DNA of 64,000 nucleotides from Pseudoalteromonas distincta (GTDB lineage Bacteria; Pseudomonadota; Gammaproteobacteria; Enterobacterales; Alteromonadaceae): the NCBI RefSeq assembly GCF_000814675.1, contig NZ_JWIG01000001.1:508471-572470 (forward strand), written 5' to 3'. Made by a program: the position numbers and the translations under genes. The notes under the pieces are model-generated. The model was given only the letters and a program-made list of their open reading frames with translations. It ran no database searches and was not told where the DNA came from. How positions within the stretch are numbered: position 1 is the first letter of the stretch; every line of letters starts with the position of its first letter. Below are positions 12,497-20,417 of this stretch, one piece after another.

Positions 12497-14500
12497 TTAA
12501 CTATGGCCCTCTTCTTTTTTGAGAATATACTCTCCATCCTTGAATATCTTAATATTAGCCTTTTTCAATTCATAGCTATTCAATTCATCTGTACTCATGC
12601 TGGTGGCAACTATCACTTGTCCCCCAGAGTCCAATAATGAACTAGACTTATCTAATAGAGATGCAAAGCTAGATTTATCAGTCTCGTGCTGTCTAGGTTC
12701 ATCAAAGACTACAAAACCTCCATGTTTCACACTGCTTTGACTGATACCTAACTCTAATAATGCAAGGGTATAGGACCATATTATCCGGATATAATCACTA
12801 GCAGATGAATCAGCTACAATGTCGTAACCATCAAGTTCGGGGCGCAAGGTTTGCTCTGATATTTGAAGAAAATGCTGATTTGCGGTTTTATAACCGAAAG
12901 CAGTTAAGTTTTCAATTAAGCGGGTTTTTAATACTTTAAGAACCTTAAATGAAACATCATCTGTACTTTTCTTCTTCAATTTTTTCAATTCTGATGTATA
13001 TCTTAGCCATTGCTGATGAAGATCTTTAGCTCGCTCATTAAAGTCAGTCTGTTTCGATACTAGTTTTATTAACCCATTAATCTCATTTTCTAATTCAACT
13101 TTTCTTTTAAGGTCTTTTCCATAAAGTTCAATAAATGCGGCTTCATCTGTTTTAAGCTCATCAATACTTGACTGAATTTTAATTATTGAAATTTGTAATA
13201 AGGCTTGTTCTTTTTCTATTTTTTTTAAGTCTTTTTCATGTCTTTTTTTAATGCCGGAATAGAAGTCAACTTGATTTTTTAAGTAACCTATATTTTGTTC
13301 AACAGTTAAAGGCTTACTTTTTACTGGTACTTTAGCCAAGCTATCGTACATATCTGAATCGCAAACTGGACATGAACCAATTTCCGCTTCGAAGTTAACC
13401 TCACTTCCTACATCATGTAACCGTTTTAATTGTCTATATCGGTCTAACTCTAAAGCAATATTTGAAACCTTATTTTCCATCTTCTGGATCGAAATTAAAA
13501 AGCTCTCTTGTTTTTGCACTAGAGAATCAAAATCTCTGAGTAATGTTCTCTTCTTCGCAGTTAGCTCTGAGACGTCATTATAATGAGGCCACGTTTTAAT
13601 ATTATTTTTGATATCAATTAATACAGCTTTCAGTCCACCCAAATAAGGCGTGATCTCAGTAAACTGATCTTGTTGAGGTACTAAAAAAGATATTAAAGGA
13701 AAAAAGCTCTCTTTTTCCAAAGTACAATCCAATTGTAATTTCATACCACCAAATTCAGCTAAAGAATCGGCTGAACTAATAATTTTTTCCCAATCTCTTT
13801 CAATGCTACTCGTTATCGCATTCAGTTCCGCTAATCTATTTTTTTTACTATAATTTTCTACTCCTAAACAGAACTCTAGTGCGGCTTTTTTCACTCCCTT
13901 AATACCATAATAAGTCGGTGTATTAGCCTGTAATTCTGACCAGCCTCTTTTTTGCTCAATGAAGAATAAAGGAAATACACATTCGAGATAAAGTCTTGTT
14001 GGTTTACCTTCATGAGTTACTAAATTTGGTAAATTCCAACCTAGGTATCTTTCAAGCCAAAAGTGGAACCCTTTTTCGCTTTTTGCTGATCCTACGCTAC
14101 CTGCACTACCCAGAAAATAATCTTCAAAAGTGCCTTTTTCATCAAAGACTGTAACTTTATCCTTATCACCTTCAACATCTCTTTTGAACTTTGCATATTG
14201 CCCAGTTGCATTTTCTACTTCTAATTCAACATATGACTGACTTACAAAATGCGGTGTGGCATCAACCTTTGATGATTCTAAAAATTGATGCATAGATCTT
14301 GGAAAAGGTTTTCTTCTACTTGGACCTAAGATGGCATCTAAAGCTAAAGCATAAGCTATTGAATTAATACAAGTAGATTTACCCGATGAGTTTTCTGCAC
14401 GTATGATGTTTAATCCTTTATAAAAAGGAATTTCAGTTGAATAAACTCCATCATTTGTAACAGAAGTTACTTTTAATTTTTTTAAAGTTAGTCCTAGCAT
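12497..14500 (-). CDS. ABC-3C system ATPase, Rad50/SMC-like with zinc hook
   Basis: 667 residues. Walker A is ENSSGKST (residues 36-43) after an SMC/Rad50-type opening strand (LKKLKVTSVTNDG). Two coiled-coil arms flank a CPVC hook near residue 378 (IGSCPVCDSDMY). The C-terminal lobe has Walker B FVVFDEPRQHE near residue 595, with a D-loop-like RQHETD, and ends with a strand-rich IVATSM segment. The whole resembles the ATPase of ABC-three-component conflict systems. It begins 2 bases after the middle-component stop, so the genes form one operon. By family knowledge it should sense a nucleic-acid or phage signal and control the effector; that is inference. Confidence 0.85.
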   Translation of the reverse strand: MLGLTLKKLKVTSVTNDGVYSTEIPFYKGLNIIRAENSSGKSTCINSIAYALALDAILGPSRRKPFPRSMHQFLESSKVDATPHFVSQSYVELEVENATGQYAKFKRDVEGDKDKVTVFDEKGTFEDYFLGSAGSVGSAKSEKGFHFWLERYLGWNLPNLVTHEGKPTRLYLECVFPLFFIEQKRGWSELQANTPTYYGIKGVKKAALEFCLGVENYSKKNRLAELNAITSSIERDWEKIISSADSLAEFGGMKLQLDCTLEKESFFPLISFLVPQQDQFTEITPYLGGLKAVLIDIKNNIKTWPHYNDVSELTAKKRTLLRDFDSLVQKQESFLISIQKMENKVSNIALELDRYRQLKRLHDVGSEVNFEAEIGSCPVCDSDMYDSLAKVPVKSKPLTVEQNIGYLKNQVDFYSGIKKRHEKDLKKIEKEQALLQISIIKIQSSIDELKTDEAAFIELYGKDLKRKVELENEINGLIKLVSKQTDFNERAKDLHQQWLRYTSELKKLKKKSTDDVSFKVLKVLKTRLIENLTAFGYKTANQHFLQISEQTLRPELDGYDIVADSSASDYIRIIWSYTLALLELGISQSSVKHGGFVVFDEPRQHETDKSSFASLLDKSSSLLDSGGQVIVATSMSTDELNSYELKKANIKIFKDGEYILKKEEGHS

Positions 14501-14502
14501 TT

Positions 14503-14970
14503 TTAGTGTCCTAAAATCCTTTTTATATAATTTTCTGTAACCTTATTTTTTATTGAATGTAGGAATTCAACTTCATTGTTAAATAAGCTTAGGTCGTTTA
14601 CCAAATGTAATAATTTATACCCCTCTTCTCCTAATATTAAGGTTTCTGAGTCTAGTTGCAAAAAACCTTTTGCCATCGCTAGTTCTATCGCTTTGTCTGT
14701 TGACTTGTCAGATGACATTGACAAAACCGAATTAGAATATGAATGTAAAGAATCATAATAATCACTCCAGTTTTGAGGCCGTATTAACATCCAAAGTAGC
14801 ACTCTCATTTTGGTGAGTTTCAATGATATACCACCTGTACCTACTACATTAATTGCAATACACATTAAGCCAATACGCCATATAGGTCTCAATTCAATAG
14901 GTAATGGGTAGCTAGTATCACTAAAGATAGCTGTAGCTGTTTTATGTTGAAGTTCCTTCTCGTTATTCAT
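14503..14970 (-). CDS. ABC-3C system middle component
   Basis: 155 residues, mainly helical, without signal peptide or catalytic motif. A conserved-looking N-terminal segment (YPLPIELRPIWRIGLMCIAI and TKMRVLLWMLIRP) suggests a winged-helix-like adaptor. Proteins of this size and pattern sit between effector and ATPase in ABC-three-component systems and are called middle components. The start overlaps the effector stop by 8 bases and the stop lies 2 bases before the ATPase start, so translation is coupled. The subtype of middle component was not determined. Confidence 0.75.
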   Translation of the reverse strand: MNNEKELQHKTATAIFSDTSYPLPIELRPIWRIGLMCIAINVVGTGGISLKLTKMRVLLWMLIRPQNWSDYYDSLHSYSNSVLSMSSDKSTDKAIELAMAKGFLQLDSETLILGEEGYKLLHLVNDLSLFNNEVEFLHSIKNKVTENYIKRILGH

Positions 14971-15869
14971 TGATAATAAAGTCCATCTTACATTCGGCTA
15001 ACCACCGAGCTATTAAGCCACTAGAAAATATCTCTATATTATTGTTTGAGATTGATTGCTCTATAGTTTTAATAGAATCTCTATTTTTTTGTAAAAGCGA
15101 CATTAATATATTTTTAGGCTCATCTCTTACAAATAAGCTTTCATTTTTTAAAGCTTCCAAATTAACTATAGCTATAGAAGTTACTTCCGTATACAAATCA
15201 GGAAATTGATCTCTATATGCATCCATCAATTCTTCAACCTGCATATACTGTCGAATCAGGCTTGTTCTAAGCCTTTCAAGATCGCTTTCACTAAATTTAT
15301 TTGTTTTCCTACAAATATTGTCAAAAAAAGTACTATTCTCAGATTTCCATATCTCTGTTATTTCAGTATTTATATCAGATATATCAACATTTATTTCCTC
15401 TCCAATGTATCTCCTAGAGAAAATAGATCCCGATGGAAATGAGTCGTCAGTTTCTATTTTTACAGAAATGCCTTTCGGGATTGAATATGATAGTTGTGGG
15501 ATTTTTTTCTCTTTTGACTTACAGTATTTGAGTAATTCTTTTGTTCTAACTTCAGGGATAACGAGTACCCAACAAGATATTTTGATATCGCCAAGCATTT
15601 TTTCAATTTCTGATTCATGCTTACTTAACTTTTTAAGGTCTTCATTTATTTTTTTTTTGAACATGCCTTCTATACTCATCCATTGAGTACGAAGGGTCAG
15701 GATAGTAACACTGAAAAATGACACCACAATTTGTAAAAAACTCTATTCCATGATCGCCTCTGTCATGGTGAGGAACACTAGTAAAATTTTTCCAAGTGAA
15801 TTCGTGCCGGAGCATCCTCTCACAGAAGCTTTCCCAAAGAGCACCATTCATTTTCAGTTTGAAGTTCAA
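14963..15869 (-). pseudogene. ABC-3C effector with Mrr-like nuclease-type N-terminus, frame broken at an A10 tract
   Basis: Two reading frames together encode one protein of about 300 residues. The first (start TTG 15869 or ATG 15851, TTG 15875 also possible; stop at 15642) holds the N-terminal domain: NGALWESFCERML, then DRGDHGIEFFTNCGVIFQCYYP, which resembles the Mrr-like restriction-nuclease-fold opening of ABC-3C effectors. The second frame (open from about 15727 to 14963) continues INEDLKKLSKHESEIEKML and the C-terminal domain. The frames meet at ten A residues (15658-15649, minus strand); nine A would give an unbroken QKKINEDLKKL. It may be a true frameshift, a sequencing error, or a gene expressed by polymerase slippage. 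The QCYYP motif lacks the usual nuclease Lys, as I recall for this family. Confidence 0.75.
15649..15658 (-). other. A10 homopolymer in the effector gene
   Basis: Ten T on the plus strand, read as ten A in the effector mRNA. It is located exactly where the two effector frames would have to join. Loss of one A, or addition of two, restores the full-length frame; the current length leads to stop TGA within three codons. Such runs are classic sites for phase variation and for transcriptional slippage. Confidence 0.85.
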
Positions 15870-16071
15870 TCTCAATTCCTTTGATATTTTTGACTATCTT
15901 TCAATGTCTTAATTTAACAATAATGGGTAGATTAATTCAACAAGTAATATTTAAATATAAATAGAGCAATAATATCAGGCCTTGCATTCCCCCAAGACCA
16001 AACACCACTTTCACGTTTAACACCCTTCCCCCGTCATCACGCCCTGAAAATAAGCAATTGATGAGTAATGC

Positions 16072-16123
16072 ATTTCATAGATGAAATGAAAGCCATGCTT
16101 GCACATGGATGTGCTTTCATGGC
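16072..16123 (+). repeat. Hairpin cluster in repeat copy 1, first module
   Basis: Contains the dyads ATTTCATAGATGAAAT (16072-16087) and GCACATGGATGTGC (16101-16114). The second is embedded in a larger stem GCCATG...CATGGC (16092-16123). The loop of the second dyad is AUGGAU in RNA and includes ACATGGATGT, which equals the ACANGGANGU CsrA-type consensus. The first dyad has AGA in place of GGA. Confidence 0.7.
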
Positions 16124-16228
16124 GTTTACGTTCACATCGATTGTGGTTTGAAGGATTAAGCGTGATGCTCGGGTGCGCTGAGAGGTGACGAATAACCGAA
16201 GCGCAGCTTCGCAGTATGAGGAAGTGAA

Positions 16229-16266
16229 GGCATGGATGCCGACAGTAACCCAGCTTCATGGATGAA
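16229..16266 (+). repeat. Hairpin pair in repeat copy 1, second module
   Basis: Two dyads with the same CATGGATG core but different stems: GGCATGGATGCC (16229-16240) and TTCATGGATGAA (16255-16266). The stem bases differ from those of the other copies yet stay complementary, as expected if the pairing itself is selected or copied as a palindrome. Confidence 0.7.
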
Positions 16267-16578
16267 TTACTTGCAGCAGCGTTAAGTTTGAAAATCTATA
16301 GCCCCACATTGGCTCACCAAGCCAGCGCGACAAAACCTTGAATAAGGTTTCTAATTTATAGAAGTGTGAAACGCGAAACGCATTCACATTATCGGTGACG
16401 ATAACCTCAAACACCTATTCAAATACTTATTCGGGCTATCGCCCGCGCGTCAGCAAGCTAAACGCCTACAACTAGTAACATATACTCTTGGCTTTTGAGC
16501 GAGTAAATATATTTGTGATTGGTTGGGTTTCGTTTCACTCAACCTAGAGGAAATACAGAAGGTCAAACTTGCTTCTTG

Positions 16579-17066
16579 CCAAGACCAAACACTAACCTCA
16601 CGTTTAACACCCTCCCCCGTCATCACGCCCTAAAAATAAGCAATTGATGAGTAATGTCGCGCATGGATGCGCGATAAGGCGGAACTAGGCCATGGATGGC
16701 CTATCTTCGCCATTTATGTTCACATCAATTGTGGTTTGAAGGATTAAGCGTGATGCTCGGGTGCGCTGAGAGTGTCCAGAGAGGGACCAGCGGCAGCCCC
16801 TCTTTGGCTGCCGTCGCCAGCGCGACAAAACCTTGAATAAGGTTTCTGATTTCTAGAAGTGCAAAACGTATTCGCGCTATCTGTAATAGTAACCTCAAAC
16901 ACCTATTCAAATACTTATTCGGGCTGTCGCCCGCGCGTCAGCAAGCTGTACGCCTACAATAAATAATACATATTCCTGGTTTGTGAGCGAGTAAGTATAT
17001 TTGTGATTTGTTGAGTTTCGTTTCACTCAACCTAGAGGAAATACAGAGGGTCAGTCTTGCTTCTTG
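16579..17066. repeat. Tandem repeat unit, copy 2 (488 bases)
   Basis: Begins CCAAGACCAAACACTAACC and is nearly identical to copy 3 over its first 260 bases. It holds two CATGGATG hairpins (16657-16703), enclosed by CAATTGATG (16641-16649) and CATCAATTG (16723-16731), and a GGCAGCC/GGCTGCC hairpin near 16788. It ends with the GTTTCGTTTCACTCAACC block also found in copy 1. Confidence 0.85.
16657..16703 (+). repeat. CATGGATG hairpin pair in copy 2
   Basis: TCGCGCATGGATGCGCGA (16657-16674) and TAGGCCATGGATGGCCTA (16686-16703). Both are near-perfect dyads around the same core, with stems of different sequence. The second is nested in a further GGCG...CGCC stem. The outer arms CAATTGATG and CATCAATTG would close a multi-branched structure. 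Confidence 0.75.
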
Positions 17067-17440
17067 CCAAGACCAAACACTAACCTCACGTTTAACACCC
17101 TTCCCCGTCATCACGCCCGAAAATAAGCAATTGATGAGTAATATCGCGCATGGATGCGCGATAAGGCGAAACTAGGCCATGGATGGCCTATCTTCGCCGT
17201 TTACGTTCACATCAATTGTGGTTTGAAGGGTTAAGCGTGATGCTCGGGTGCGCTGAGAGTGTCCAGAGAGGGACCAGCGTCAGCCCCTCTTTGGCTGCCG
17301 TCGCCAGCGCGACAAAACCTTGAATAAGGTTTCTAATCCCTCAATGAGCCAAAAGCAAACAAAGTATGCGCCTTCAATAATTAAACACCTTTTGGGCTGC
17401 GCCCAACACGCCAGCAAGCTGTGCGTCTACAATGTTTAAA
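17067..17440. repeat. Tandem repeat unit, copy 3 (about 374 bases, shortened)
   Basis: Begins CCAAGACCAAACACTAACC. It keeps the hairpin region and the GCGCGACAAAACCTTGAA block, then diverges (CCCTCAATGAGCC) and ends with TTTTGGGCTGCGCCCAAC and GCCAGCAAGCTGTGCG, related to the 3' part of copies 1 and 2. It lacks the final CACTCAACC block. The gcvP terminator follows at once. Confidence 0.8.
17144..17190 (+). repeat. CATGGATG hairpin pair in copy 3
   Basis: TCGCGCATGGATGCGCGA (17144-17161) and TAGGCCATGGATGGCCTA (17173-17190), identical to copy 2, closed by CAATTGATG (17128-17136) and CATCAATTG (17210-17218). Confidence 0.75.
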
Positions 17441-17525: not shown

Positions 17526-20417
17526 TCAATCTCTATATGTCTCAACCGCTGGGCATGAACATACTAAGTTACGGTCGCCGTATACGTCATCAATACGTGT
17601 AACGGTTGGCCAAAACTTGTTTTTAGCCACGGCAGGCACTGGAAATGCAGCGTAAAAACGGTCGTACGCGCGGTCCCATTCGTTACCTAACACGTCGCCT
17701 TGTGTATGCGGTGCAAACACTAGCGGGTTGTTTTCGATTGACCATTCGCCAGAGATTACTTTTTCGATTTCGCCTTTAATTGACACCATTGCTTCGATAA
17801 AGCGGTCAATCTCACCTTTTGATTCAGACTCAGTTGGCTCAATCATTAATGTGCCAGCTACTGGGAACGACATAGTTGGTGAATGGAAGCCGTAATCTTG
17901 CAAGCGCTTAGCTACGTCCATTTCAGTAATGCCTGATTGCTCTTTAAGCGGGCGTAAGTCAACAATACATTCATGAGCAACACGGTTGTTACGACCACGG
18001 TATAAAATTGGGAAGTGCTTGCTTAGCTCATGCGTTAAGTAGTTAGCGTTCACAATGGCCATTTCAGTGGCTTGTTTTAAGCCCTCGCTCCCCATCATGG
18101 TGATGTAAGCCCATGAAATAGGTAAAATAGCGGCTGAGCCGTAAGGCGCTGCCGATACCGCACCGTTACCGATGTTAGTACCTGGTACGTTAATTACGCT
18201 GTGGTTTGGCATAAATGGCGCAAGATGCGATTTAACACCAATTGGGCCAACACCTGGACCACCGCCACCGTGTGGAATACAAAATGTTTTATGCAAGTTT
18301 AAGTGCGATACATCTGAGCCAATAAAGCCTGGGCTTGTTACGCCAACTTGCGCGTTCATGTTTGCGCCGTCCATGTAAACTTGGCCGCCGTGTTCATGAA
18401 TAATGTCACAAATTTCGCGAATTGTTTCTTCGTATACGCCATGCGTAGACGGGTATGTGATCATGATGCACGATAAGTTTTCAGACACTTCTTCTGCTTT
18501 CGCTTTAAGGTCGTTCATGTCTACGTTACCGTTTTTGTCGCAGTTAACTACTACAATTTTCATGCTCGCCATTTGCGCTGATGCAGGATTAGTACCGTGC
18601 GCAGAGCTTGGGATTAAACATACATTACGGTGTGCATCGCCGCGTGACTCATGGTATTTACGAATCGCGATTAAGCCTGCGTATTCACCTTGCGCGCCAG
18701 AGTTTGGCTGTAGTGATACTGCATCGTAACCGGTAATGTTTACTAGCCAGTCGTGTAACTCGTTAATCATTATTTGGTAACCCTCTGCTTGATCCAGCGG
18801 GCAGAATGGGTGAAGGTTTGCAAACTCAGGCCACGTAATTGGGATCATCTCAGCAGTCGCGTTTAGTTTCATGGTACATGAGCCTAACGAGATCATTGAG
18901 TGATTAAGCGATAAGTCTTTGCTTTCTAGTCGCTTAATGTAGCGAAGCATGTCTGTTTCGCTGTGGTAGCTGTTAAAGTTTGGATGCGTTAGTACTTCGT
19001 CATCACGTACTAAACTTGCAGGAATTGACTCGCTGCCATTTTCTTCAACGTCGGCTGCAATAGCGTCAACACTTAGGCCATGCCCTTCGCCTAAAATAAT
19101 ATCGAATAACTCAGTAATATCGGCACGTGTTGTTGTCTCTGATACCGAAATTGAGTACTCGCCTTCGTGGTTTGTTGCAAAGTTTACGCCTTTTGCAATT
19201 GCACGCGCTATTACGTCGTCTTTGCTATCGCTTACTACTGTTAGCGTATCAAACCAAGTGCTGTGCTTAAGTGCGATGCCTTTAGCTTTAAGGCCACTTG
19301 CTAAAATATCAGCAAAGCGATGTATACGCTGCGCGATAGTTTTTAAGCCTTGTGGGCCGTGGTACACCGCGTAAAACGCTGCCATGTTGGCAAGTAATAC
19401 TTGTGCTGTACAAATGTTTGAGTTGGCTTTGTCGCGACGAATGTGTTGTTCGCGCGTTTGCATTGCCATACGTAGTGCGTCGTTACCTAAACGGTCTTTA
19501 GATACACCAATAATACGACCTGGTAATGAACGTTTGTATGCGTCACGTGTTGCAAAAAATGCAGCGTGTGGACCGCCGTAACCCATAGGTACGCCAAAAC
19601 GTTGAGCCGAACCAAGTACTACGTCTGCGCCTAGTTTACCCGGTGCTTTTAATAGTAATAAGCTCATTATGTCGGCAGCAACACAGGCAATGGCCTTTTT
19701 GCTTTGTACGCCAGCAATTAGGTCAGTTATGTCTACCACTTCGCCTGATGTAGTTGGGTATTGGAACAATGCGCCAAAAATGTCGTGGTTTACGGCATCT
19801 TCTGCTTTACCTACAATTACTTCAAAACCAAACTGCTCGGCACGCGTTGTTACTACGTCGATTGTTTGTGTGTGTACGTCGTCGGCAATAAAAAAGGCAT
19901 TTGCTTTTTTAGCTTTTGATACGCGTTTTGCAAGGCCCATAGCCTCTGCAGCGGCTGTTGATTCGTCAAGTAGTGATGCACTTGCTAAATCAAGACCAGT
20001 TAAATCTAGGGTCATAGTCTGGAAGTTTAATAATGATTCTAAACGCCCTTGTGCAATCTCTGGCTGATACGGTGTGTACGCTGTATACCAACCTGGATTT
20101 TCTAGTACGTTACGTAAAATTACGTGCGGTACGTTAGTTGGGTGGTAGCCTTGGCCAATGTACGATTTGAAAACTTTATTTTTGCTTGCTACTGATTTTA
20201 AGTAGCTTAGTGTTTCAACTTCAGTACGGCTTTGTCCAACTGTTAGCGGTTGCTCTAGACGAATGCTAGCCGGTACAGTTTGGTCAATGAGCTCTTGCAC
20301 ACTCGATACTTCTAAAGCACTTAGCATATCGCTTACTTGTGCTGGGCTTGGCCCAATATGGCGGCGAATAAAGTCTTGCTTTTGCTCTAGTTCTTCAAGA
20401 GATTTGGCGTTTGACAT
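17526..20417 (-). CDS. gcvP: Glycine dehydrogenase (decarboxylating), P-protein
   Basis: 963 residues, the full length of single-chain GcvP (E. coli 957). It binds glycine via PLP, releases CO2 and passes the aminomethyl group to the lipoyl arm of GcvH. The PLP lysine lies in [19 protein letters not shown] near residue 708. N-terminal [17 protein letters not shown] and [14 protein letters not shown] are family signatures. The gene follows gcvH but after a 175-base gap with a hairpin (20536-20573), so it may have its own promoter or partial readthrough. Confidence 0.97.

Follow-up and report, generated by a model that had tools for sequence, protein, structure and literature searches.

The window, by which we mean the whole 64,000-nucleotide stretch of Pseudoalteromonas distincta DNA analysed here, carries an array of structured repeats, flanked on one side by an operon of three genes (12497-15727) and on the other by the 3′ end of gcvP (17526-20417), both encoded on the minus strand. 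The features discussed below are listed by position.

12497-14500, minus strand: SMC/ABC-type ATPase (PF13476 AAA_23)
14503-14970, minus strand: open reading frame for a 155-aa protein; family searches gave no match
14963-15727, minus strand: open reading frame for a 254-aa protein; family searches gave no match
16018-16362, plus strand: TwoAYGGAY copy 1, degenerate, with an alternative tail (RF01731 below cut-off; nhmmer 16023-16362)
16071-16088, plus strand: copy 1 hairpin 1, loop AUAGAU, GGA lost (from the sequence)
16101-16114, plus strand: copy 1 hairpin 2, GCAC-AUGGAU-GUGC, with ACANGGANGU exact (from the sequence)
16170-16305, plus strand: copy 1 alternative tail, holding two additional CATGGATG sites at 16229-16240 and 16255-16266 (homologues elsewhere)
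16430-16472, 16918-16960 and 17391-17433, minus strand: REP-like palindrome, three copies between and after the elements (direct-repeat family D7, pattern scan)
16603-16858, plus strand: TwoAYGGAY copy 2, full element (RF01731 57.3 bits at 16604-16771; nhmmer)
16657-16674, plus strand: copy 2 hairpin 1, TCGCGC-AUGGAU-GCGCGA (from the sequence)
16686-16703, plus strand: copy 2 hairpin 2, TAGGCC-AUGGAU-GGCCTA (from the sequence)
17091-17344, plus strand: TwoAYGGAY copy 3, full element (RF01731 69.3 bits at 17093-17258; folding)
17144-17161, plus strand: copy 3 hairpin 1 (from the sequence)
17173-17190, plus strand: copy 3 hairpin 2 (from the sequence)
17526-20417, minus strand: gcvP, convergent neighbour of the array (TIGR00461, 1562.8 bits); gcvH and gcvT lie past it

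The 254-aa product of the three-gene operon is 24% identical to a protein at another locus (L081) that matches PADLOC LmuA, and the operon is a candidate for a defence system of the Lamassu-like or ABC three-component kind.

An earlier note on this DNA had described seven dyads that share CATGGATG but differ in their stems, with an eighth bearing AGA, and had likened them to CsrA/RsmA sites. A sequence scan returned the same seven cores, all on the plus strand (16104, 16231, 16257, 16662, 16691, 17149 and 17178), with none further on either strand of the 64-kb window; 100 shuffles of the window held a mean of 1.00 (sd 0.97, largest 4). The stems are those it named (GCAC/GTGC, GGC/GCC, TTC/GAA, TCGCGC/GCGCGA and TAGGCC/GGCCTA), the AGA-bearing member is the CATAGATG dyad CATTTC-ATAGAT-GAAATG at 16071-16088, and the exact ACANGGANGU that it reported lies in hairpin 2 of copy 1. 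The dyads are real, but they are not independent of one another: the pair 16657-16674/16686-16703 recurs as 17144-17161/17173-17190 in the next tandem copy, and its homologue in a third copy, further diverged, is 16071-16088/16101-16114. The copies are spaced ~588 and ~487 nt apart. As a genome-wide motif CATGGATG was rejected, with 64 + 66 = 130 matches against 60 + 71 = 131 for the reversed control; it is the local element that is special, not the octamer itself.

All these hairpins fall within three tandem copies of Rfam family RF01731, TwoAYGGAY. The Rfam covariance model, which has 168 positions and a gathering cut-off of 43 bits, was passed by copies 2 and 3 (57.3 and 69.3 bits), and copy 1 stayed under it at 41.1 bits in a whole-genome search and 38.3 bits in a local search. 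Both terminal AYGGAY loops read AUGGAU in copies 2 and 3, and copy 1 departs from the pattern with AUAGAU in hairpin 1. Besides the array, the genome has two copies on another contig, one of them over the cut-off, which brings the matches over the cut-off to three genome-wide.

An iterated nhmmer model applied to 61 stretches gave 148 non-overlapping copies, 98 of them scoring above 150; because the stretches were fetched mainly around the best RF01731-search matches, this set is biased to well-scoring copies. At the best-sampled locus, conservation runs from ~30 nt before the model start to ~+240 and similarity drops abruptly on both sides. The conserved element, of ~250 nt and nine predicted helices, thus exceeds the Rfam model, and helices 8 and 9, which form a 3′ domain outside it, also covary. 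The alternative tail of copy 1 has homologues in element copies of other genomes, where GGA is kept at both sites in 17 of 17 aligned rows. Genomes of Pseudoalteromonas with high copy numbers (loci L077 and L078) contain a shorter variant in alternating, BIME-like arrays.

The earlier note had called the stems co-varying, and this holds across genomic copies. Among 42 copies of less than 93% mutual identity, scored against an RNAalifold structure of 59 pairs in nine helices, pairing was kept in 97.3% of cells, and 37 of the 59 pairs were compensated by changes on both sides. The covariation score was 0.404 against 0.149 for shuffles, none of 500 shuffles was as high, and slid structures gave 0.036-0.082, in a comparison somewhat favourable to the structure because it had been predicted from the same alignment. 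The loops remain constant as ANGGA(U/C) while the stems covary, a pattern indicating selection at the RNA level. Copy 3 (17093-17344) folded at -104.9 kcal/mol with a z of -8.0; its reverse strand folded about equally (z -7.4), which counts against a CsrA-binding RNA. The plus strand is favoured as the RNA strand by the ratio of G-U to A-C cells upon it, 48 to 19. Promoter scores of the element copies equalled those of shuffles (8.06 vs 8.06), and an intrinsic-terminator pattern was found in 10 of 79 copies and in 3.9% of shuffles. Transcription from the plus strand is presumed, with promoter and terminator tests negative or weak.

In the profile search, both loops carried GGA in 75 of 75 aligned copies, with a closing C-G pair in 75 and 74, respectively, and a GGA-to-GGA spacing of 29 nt in 69 copies and 30 nt in 6. 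Since copies found by the profile include the loop core, a second search used a pattern of the flanks alone, with the core left free, and yielded 71 matches in 108 genomes of the genus. Hairpin 1 had GGA in 70 of the 71 and hairpin 2 in 66, a count that excludes one copy (G041 b) whose GGA lies outside the loop; the single loss in hairpin 1 is copy 1 of the window. The earlier note had staked its reading on cores elsewhere not lacking GGA as often as they have it, and these counts are clearly in its favour. Its RNA-level hairpins with GGA hexaloops and covarying stems are likewise supported. Twelve copies in named genomes, all Pseudoalteromonas and overlapping the 108, had GGA in 12 of 12 (hairpin 1) and 10 of 12 (hairpin 2). 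Eighteen RF01731 loci came from other genera of the order, 17 of them outside the nucleotide profile and one a weak match to it. At least one GGA-hexaloop hairpin was present at 16 of these 18, and at 7 of 7 phylum-search loci among the matches listed, in both cases with a covariance model that itself favours GGA.

We compared this architecture with that of known CsrA ligands. Passages of PMC7652899 give the CsrA SELEX site as RUACARGGAUGU and the RsmE loop as ANGGAN, name L4 and R44 as key residues, state that CsrA can bridge two sites separated by 10-63 nt, optimally by more than 18 nt, and report SELEX ligand stems of mostly four base pairs or fewer. The element loops fit the ANGGAN consensus, and the 29-30 nt between their GGAs agree with both the bridging range and the >18 nt optimum. 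The stems of hairpin 1, often 6-8 bp, exceed the length usual among SELEX ligands in that source, which speaks against the highest CsrA affinity. The genome has one csrA, and the encoded protein has both L4 and R44. Among 398 genomes of a phylum sample, RF01731 occurred in 35 and csrA in 220, and all 35 carriers had csrA (Fisher 2.6e-10), in a co-occurrence that is confounded by phylogeny and was obtained by comparing the two genome lists by hand. Within the class, RF01731 was found in 34 of 104 csrA-positive and 0 of 20 csrA-negative genomes among those listed (p 8e-4).

The array consists of three tandem TwoAYGGAY copies, and we lean, with no great margin of confidence, towards reading them as small CsrA-binding ncRNAs. 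It stands at the border of a hypervariable region downstream of gcvP, with the three-gene operon as its divergent cargo. In an intact copy, an outer stem would present two hairpins whose CsrA-type loops (AUGGAU, closed by C-G) stand 29 nt apart, followed by the conserved 3′ domain with two more stems. The most likely action would be the bridging of both loops by one CsrA dimer. The RNA, when made, could then act as a decoy and lower free CsrA, or its own stability might be under CsrA control, and tandem copies and the extra tail would add to the number of sites. TwoAYGGAY is present in 73 of 108 genomes of the genus, a patchiness that makes the RNA dispensable and counts against this reading. 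So does Pseudoalteromonas sp. Bsw20308 (NZ_CP013139.1): in the two copies seen there (44.8 and 42.9 bits; cut-off 43) the loop of hairpin 1 contains an insert of ~48 nt with the stem intact (L260 3363-3498 and 3926-4061, plus strand of that locus). Both copies lie divergent from a DNA cytosine methyltransferase.

The CsrA/RsmA reading of the earlier note is thus partly supported, by the hairpins with GGA hexaloops, their covariation and the presence of csrA; the comparison it drew with Csr sponges of many sites does not carry over. CsrB-type transcripts have ~9-25 GGA, and the element has two conserved sites per core and four with the extra tail; TwoAYGGAY is thus not a many-site sponge of that type. 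Looking for Csr RNA genes elsewhere in the genome, as the earlier note had proposed, turned up a separate CsrB-like RNA on another contig (G000:C7:63310-63737, minus strand, locus L180). Its RF00018 score of 21.8 bits is weak and below the cut-off of 71, and the same loose search also matched 5 of 14 control genomes. Over 548 nt, however, it has 23 GGA against a single TCC, and its terminal hairpin is GC-rich; it may be the genome's main Csr sponge. It agrees with the Csr RNAs Pf1-Pf3 of Pseudoalteromonas fuliginea, which have 9-25 GGA according to passages of PMC9927453 and PMC11882849. RF00018 had no match at the TwoAYGGAY array; the only matches in the genome (E <= 1; 21.8 and 13.3 bits, cut-off 71) were at another locus. 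With two sites per core, beside a CsrB-like RNA with 23 GGA, titration of CsrA by TwoAYGGAY would be weak.

In order to place the element in its genomic setting, we surveyed the genes on either side of it. Among copies scoring above 150, 81 of 98 had a divergent 5′ neighbour and 69 of 95 a convergent 3′ neighbour. Counted by family within 700 nt, the 5′ neighbours comprised 44 families that were always divergent, 12 that were always co-directional and 1 seen both ways (p 2e-5 vs even odds); the 3′ neighbours comprised 25 that were always convergent and 11 always co-directional (p 0.03 vs even odds). Even odds are a rough null, and 23 random intergenic gaps of at least 250 nt had mixed orientations. 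The families named among the 44 divergent-neighbour representatives are HamA, DndA/SspA, Lamassu LmuA, MzaB, cytosine methyltransferase, AIPR and Cap4-type. For many of the cargo proteins there is no named family; two of them match REP-type transposases. PADLOC matches at E <= 1e-8 were obtained for 6 of 20 cargo families and 2 of 20 random proteins (p 0.12), the two sets being random draws from the 44 cargo representatives and 44 controls. For the whole sets at E <= 1e-3, the 44 cargo proteins matched 131 PADLOC families and the 44 controls 22, figures that count families, not proteins. The defence enrichment of the cargo is thus suggestive and not significant.

One hotspot, the best sampled, illustrates the turnover of this cargo. 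Its anchor gene (L066 2180-3718 and homologues) joins an HNH domain to an S24 peptidase domain, and the 21 copies beside it that have a divergent gene nearby are paired with 17 cargo families. Element identity averaged 0.81 for copies with the same 3′ anchor and different cargo (216 pairs), 0.69 with the same cargo and different anchor (56 pairs), 0.76 with both shared (12 pairs) and 0.63 with neither (1066 pairs). Movement of element and cargo as one cassette is thus unsupported, identity tracking the anchor (0.81) over the cargo (0.69). In Pseudoalteromonas, then, the RNA is in most cases divergent from cargo that varies and is partly of defence type, and its sequence goes with the locus and not with the cargo, an arrangement that is apparently new. 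It is tempting to speculate, though we think it rather improbable, that TwoAYGGAY elements are resident CsrA-binding modules of defence hotspots, staying while anti-phage cargo is swapped and coupling hotspot or free-CsrA dose to divergent defence expression.

The gcvP locus bears on two alternatives that start from position. The 3′ part of gcvP was matched in 60 of 60 genus genomes searched; at 30 loci, the best matches among these 60 genomes, an element or remnant was present at 14, each time oriented convergently with gcvP. The consistent orientation, the convergent 3′ neighbours overall and the Rfam type of RF01731, Cis-reg, would suit a cis-acting structured RNA at gene 3′ ends, a convergent insulator or an RNA-stability or readthrough element whose GGA loops are read by a factor other than CsrA. 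We regard this as unlikely: no element was detected at the remaining 16 of the 30 gcvP loci, GGA would be antisense to the gcvP message, 18 loci outside the genus lack the 5′ orientation bias (10 divergent, 8 co-directional), and the discovery paper rated the family as probably an RNA and probably not cis-regulatory (PMC2864571). The element might instead serve as a recombination handle, shared homology at island edges for the exchange of cargo, with any RNA function secondary. The 17 cargo families at one conserved locus and the high similarity across the element that falls abruptly on both sides are what such a handle would leave, yet it would conserve primary sequence, and here the stems change freely with pairing kept. 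Moreover, genes within ~1.5 kb beyond gcvP differ almost everywhere, and element-free loci are as variable as the rest, so a need for the element in hotspot variability was rejected; the element appears to be a resident of variable loci and not the cause of their variability. We consider the handle very improbable.

The earlier note had itself raised a DNA-level palindrome family, and the corresponding explanation, a REP-like mobile DNA whose stems are read as ssDNA by a transposase and which spreads like REP/BIME, has more to recommend it. Copies of the element are dispersed, number as many as 21 in a genome, lie in both orientations, and form tandem and alternating arrays in high-copy genomes. 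RAYT-type genes were matched in 105 of 108 genus genomes (75 over cut-off), and by a hand tally the element was present in 53 of 67 genomes with a strong RAYT (E <= 1e-30) and 20 of 41 others (p 0.0015). GTAG-type palindromes sit between elements, and a TGTAGG...AGCTTGC pattern, found at 17 of 60 loci with the element and at none of 20 random control stretches, is matched by the first two palindromes of the window (16430-16472 and 16918-16960). Despite the co-occurrence with strong RAYT genes, 14 of 15 RAYT loci (L166-L179 and L181) had no element, the exception (L178) having been pre-selected as a known element holder, and one genome (G105) has four element copies and no RAYT match; mobilisation by RAYT/REP is thus unsupported. 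Recognition of DNA alone also leaves GGA on one strand and the free covariation of many helices unexplained, and on balance we find the mobile-DNA account doubtful. With copy 2 as the only query, no match was found in 50,697 phage records, and the seven plasmid-record matches were all large Pseudoalteromonas replicons typed non-mobilizable, so phage or conjugative carriage was rejected.

CsrA binding is the best available reading, and both the family and the hypothesis were already known. Since 2010 TwoAYGGAY has remained an orphan among candidate RNAs, functionally unproven, and CsrA binding was proposed in 2014 (PMC4333381). The name also appears in Rfam 15 (PMC11701678), a stability survey (PMC11661157) and PMC7657543. 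Among the matches listed, the open literature yielded no experimental follow-up and no paper tying TwoAYGGAY to defence or to Pseudoalteromonas. A literature text search for ACANGGANGU together with CsrA terms had no match, and the listed matches to the octamer CATGGATG as a text string look unrelated by title. Apparently new are the extended element, the loop test on flank-selected copies, the co-occurrence with csrA and the variable, partly defence-type setting. The question is approachable with existing data, because Bsw20308, for which CsrA RIP-seq has been published (PMC11882849, which uses the locus-tag prefix of that strain, D172), carries two copies. Because the RNA often lies beside swappable defence-type genes, its function is testable. 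If CsrA binding is true, RNA partners of a global regulator of carbon storage would be scattered over defence islands.

Compared with RF01731 as described, the Pseudoalteromonas element shares a model match over the cut-off, two terminal AYGGAY loops and the outer stem, and differs in its conserved 3′ domain (helices 8 and 9) and in the alternative tail with two more sites; the array in the window differs further in being tandem and in having a copy 1 with one loop lost and a score below the cut-off. In common with CsrB, CsrC and RsmX/Y/Z, the element has GGA in hairpin loops, a possible role in CsrA titration and a genome with csrA. In contrast to Pf1-Pf3 and other CsrB types, it has 2-4 CsrA-type sites per unit and not 9-25 GGA, no promoter or strong terminator was detected in its copies, and it is multi-copy at variable loci. 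With REP/BIME and RAYT systems it shares intergenic palindromes, multiple copies and both orientations; it differs from them in being a large RNA of many helices whose GGA loops lie on one strand, and in its absence from the RAYT loci examined except the one chosen for it.
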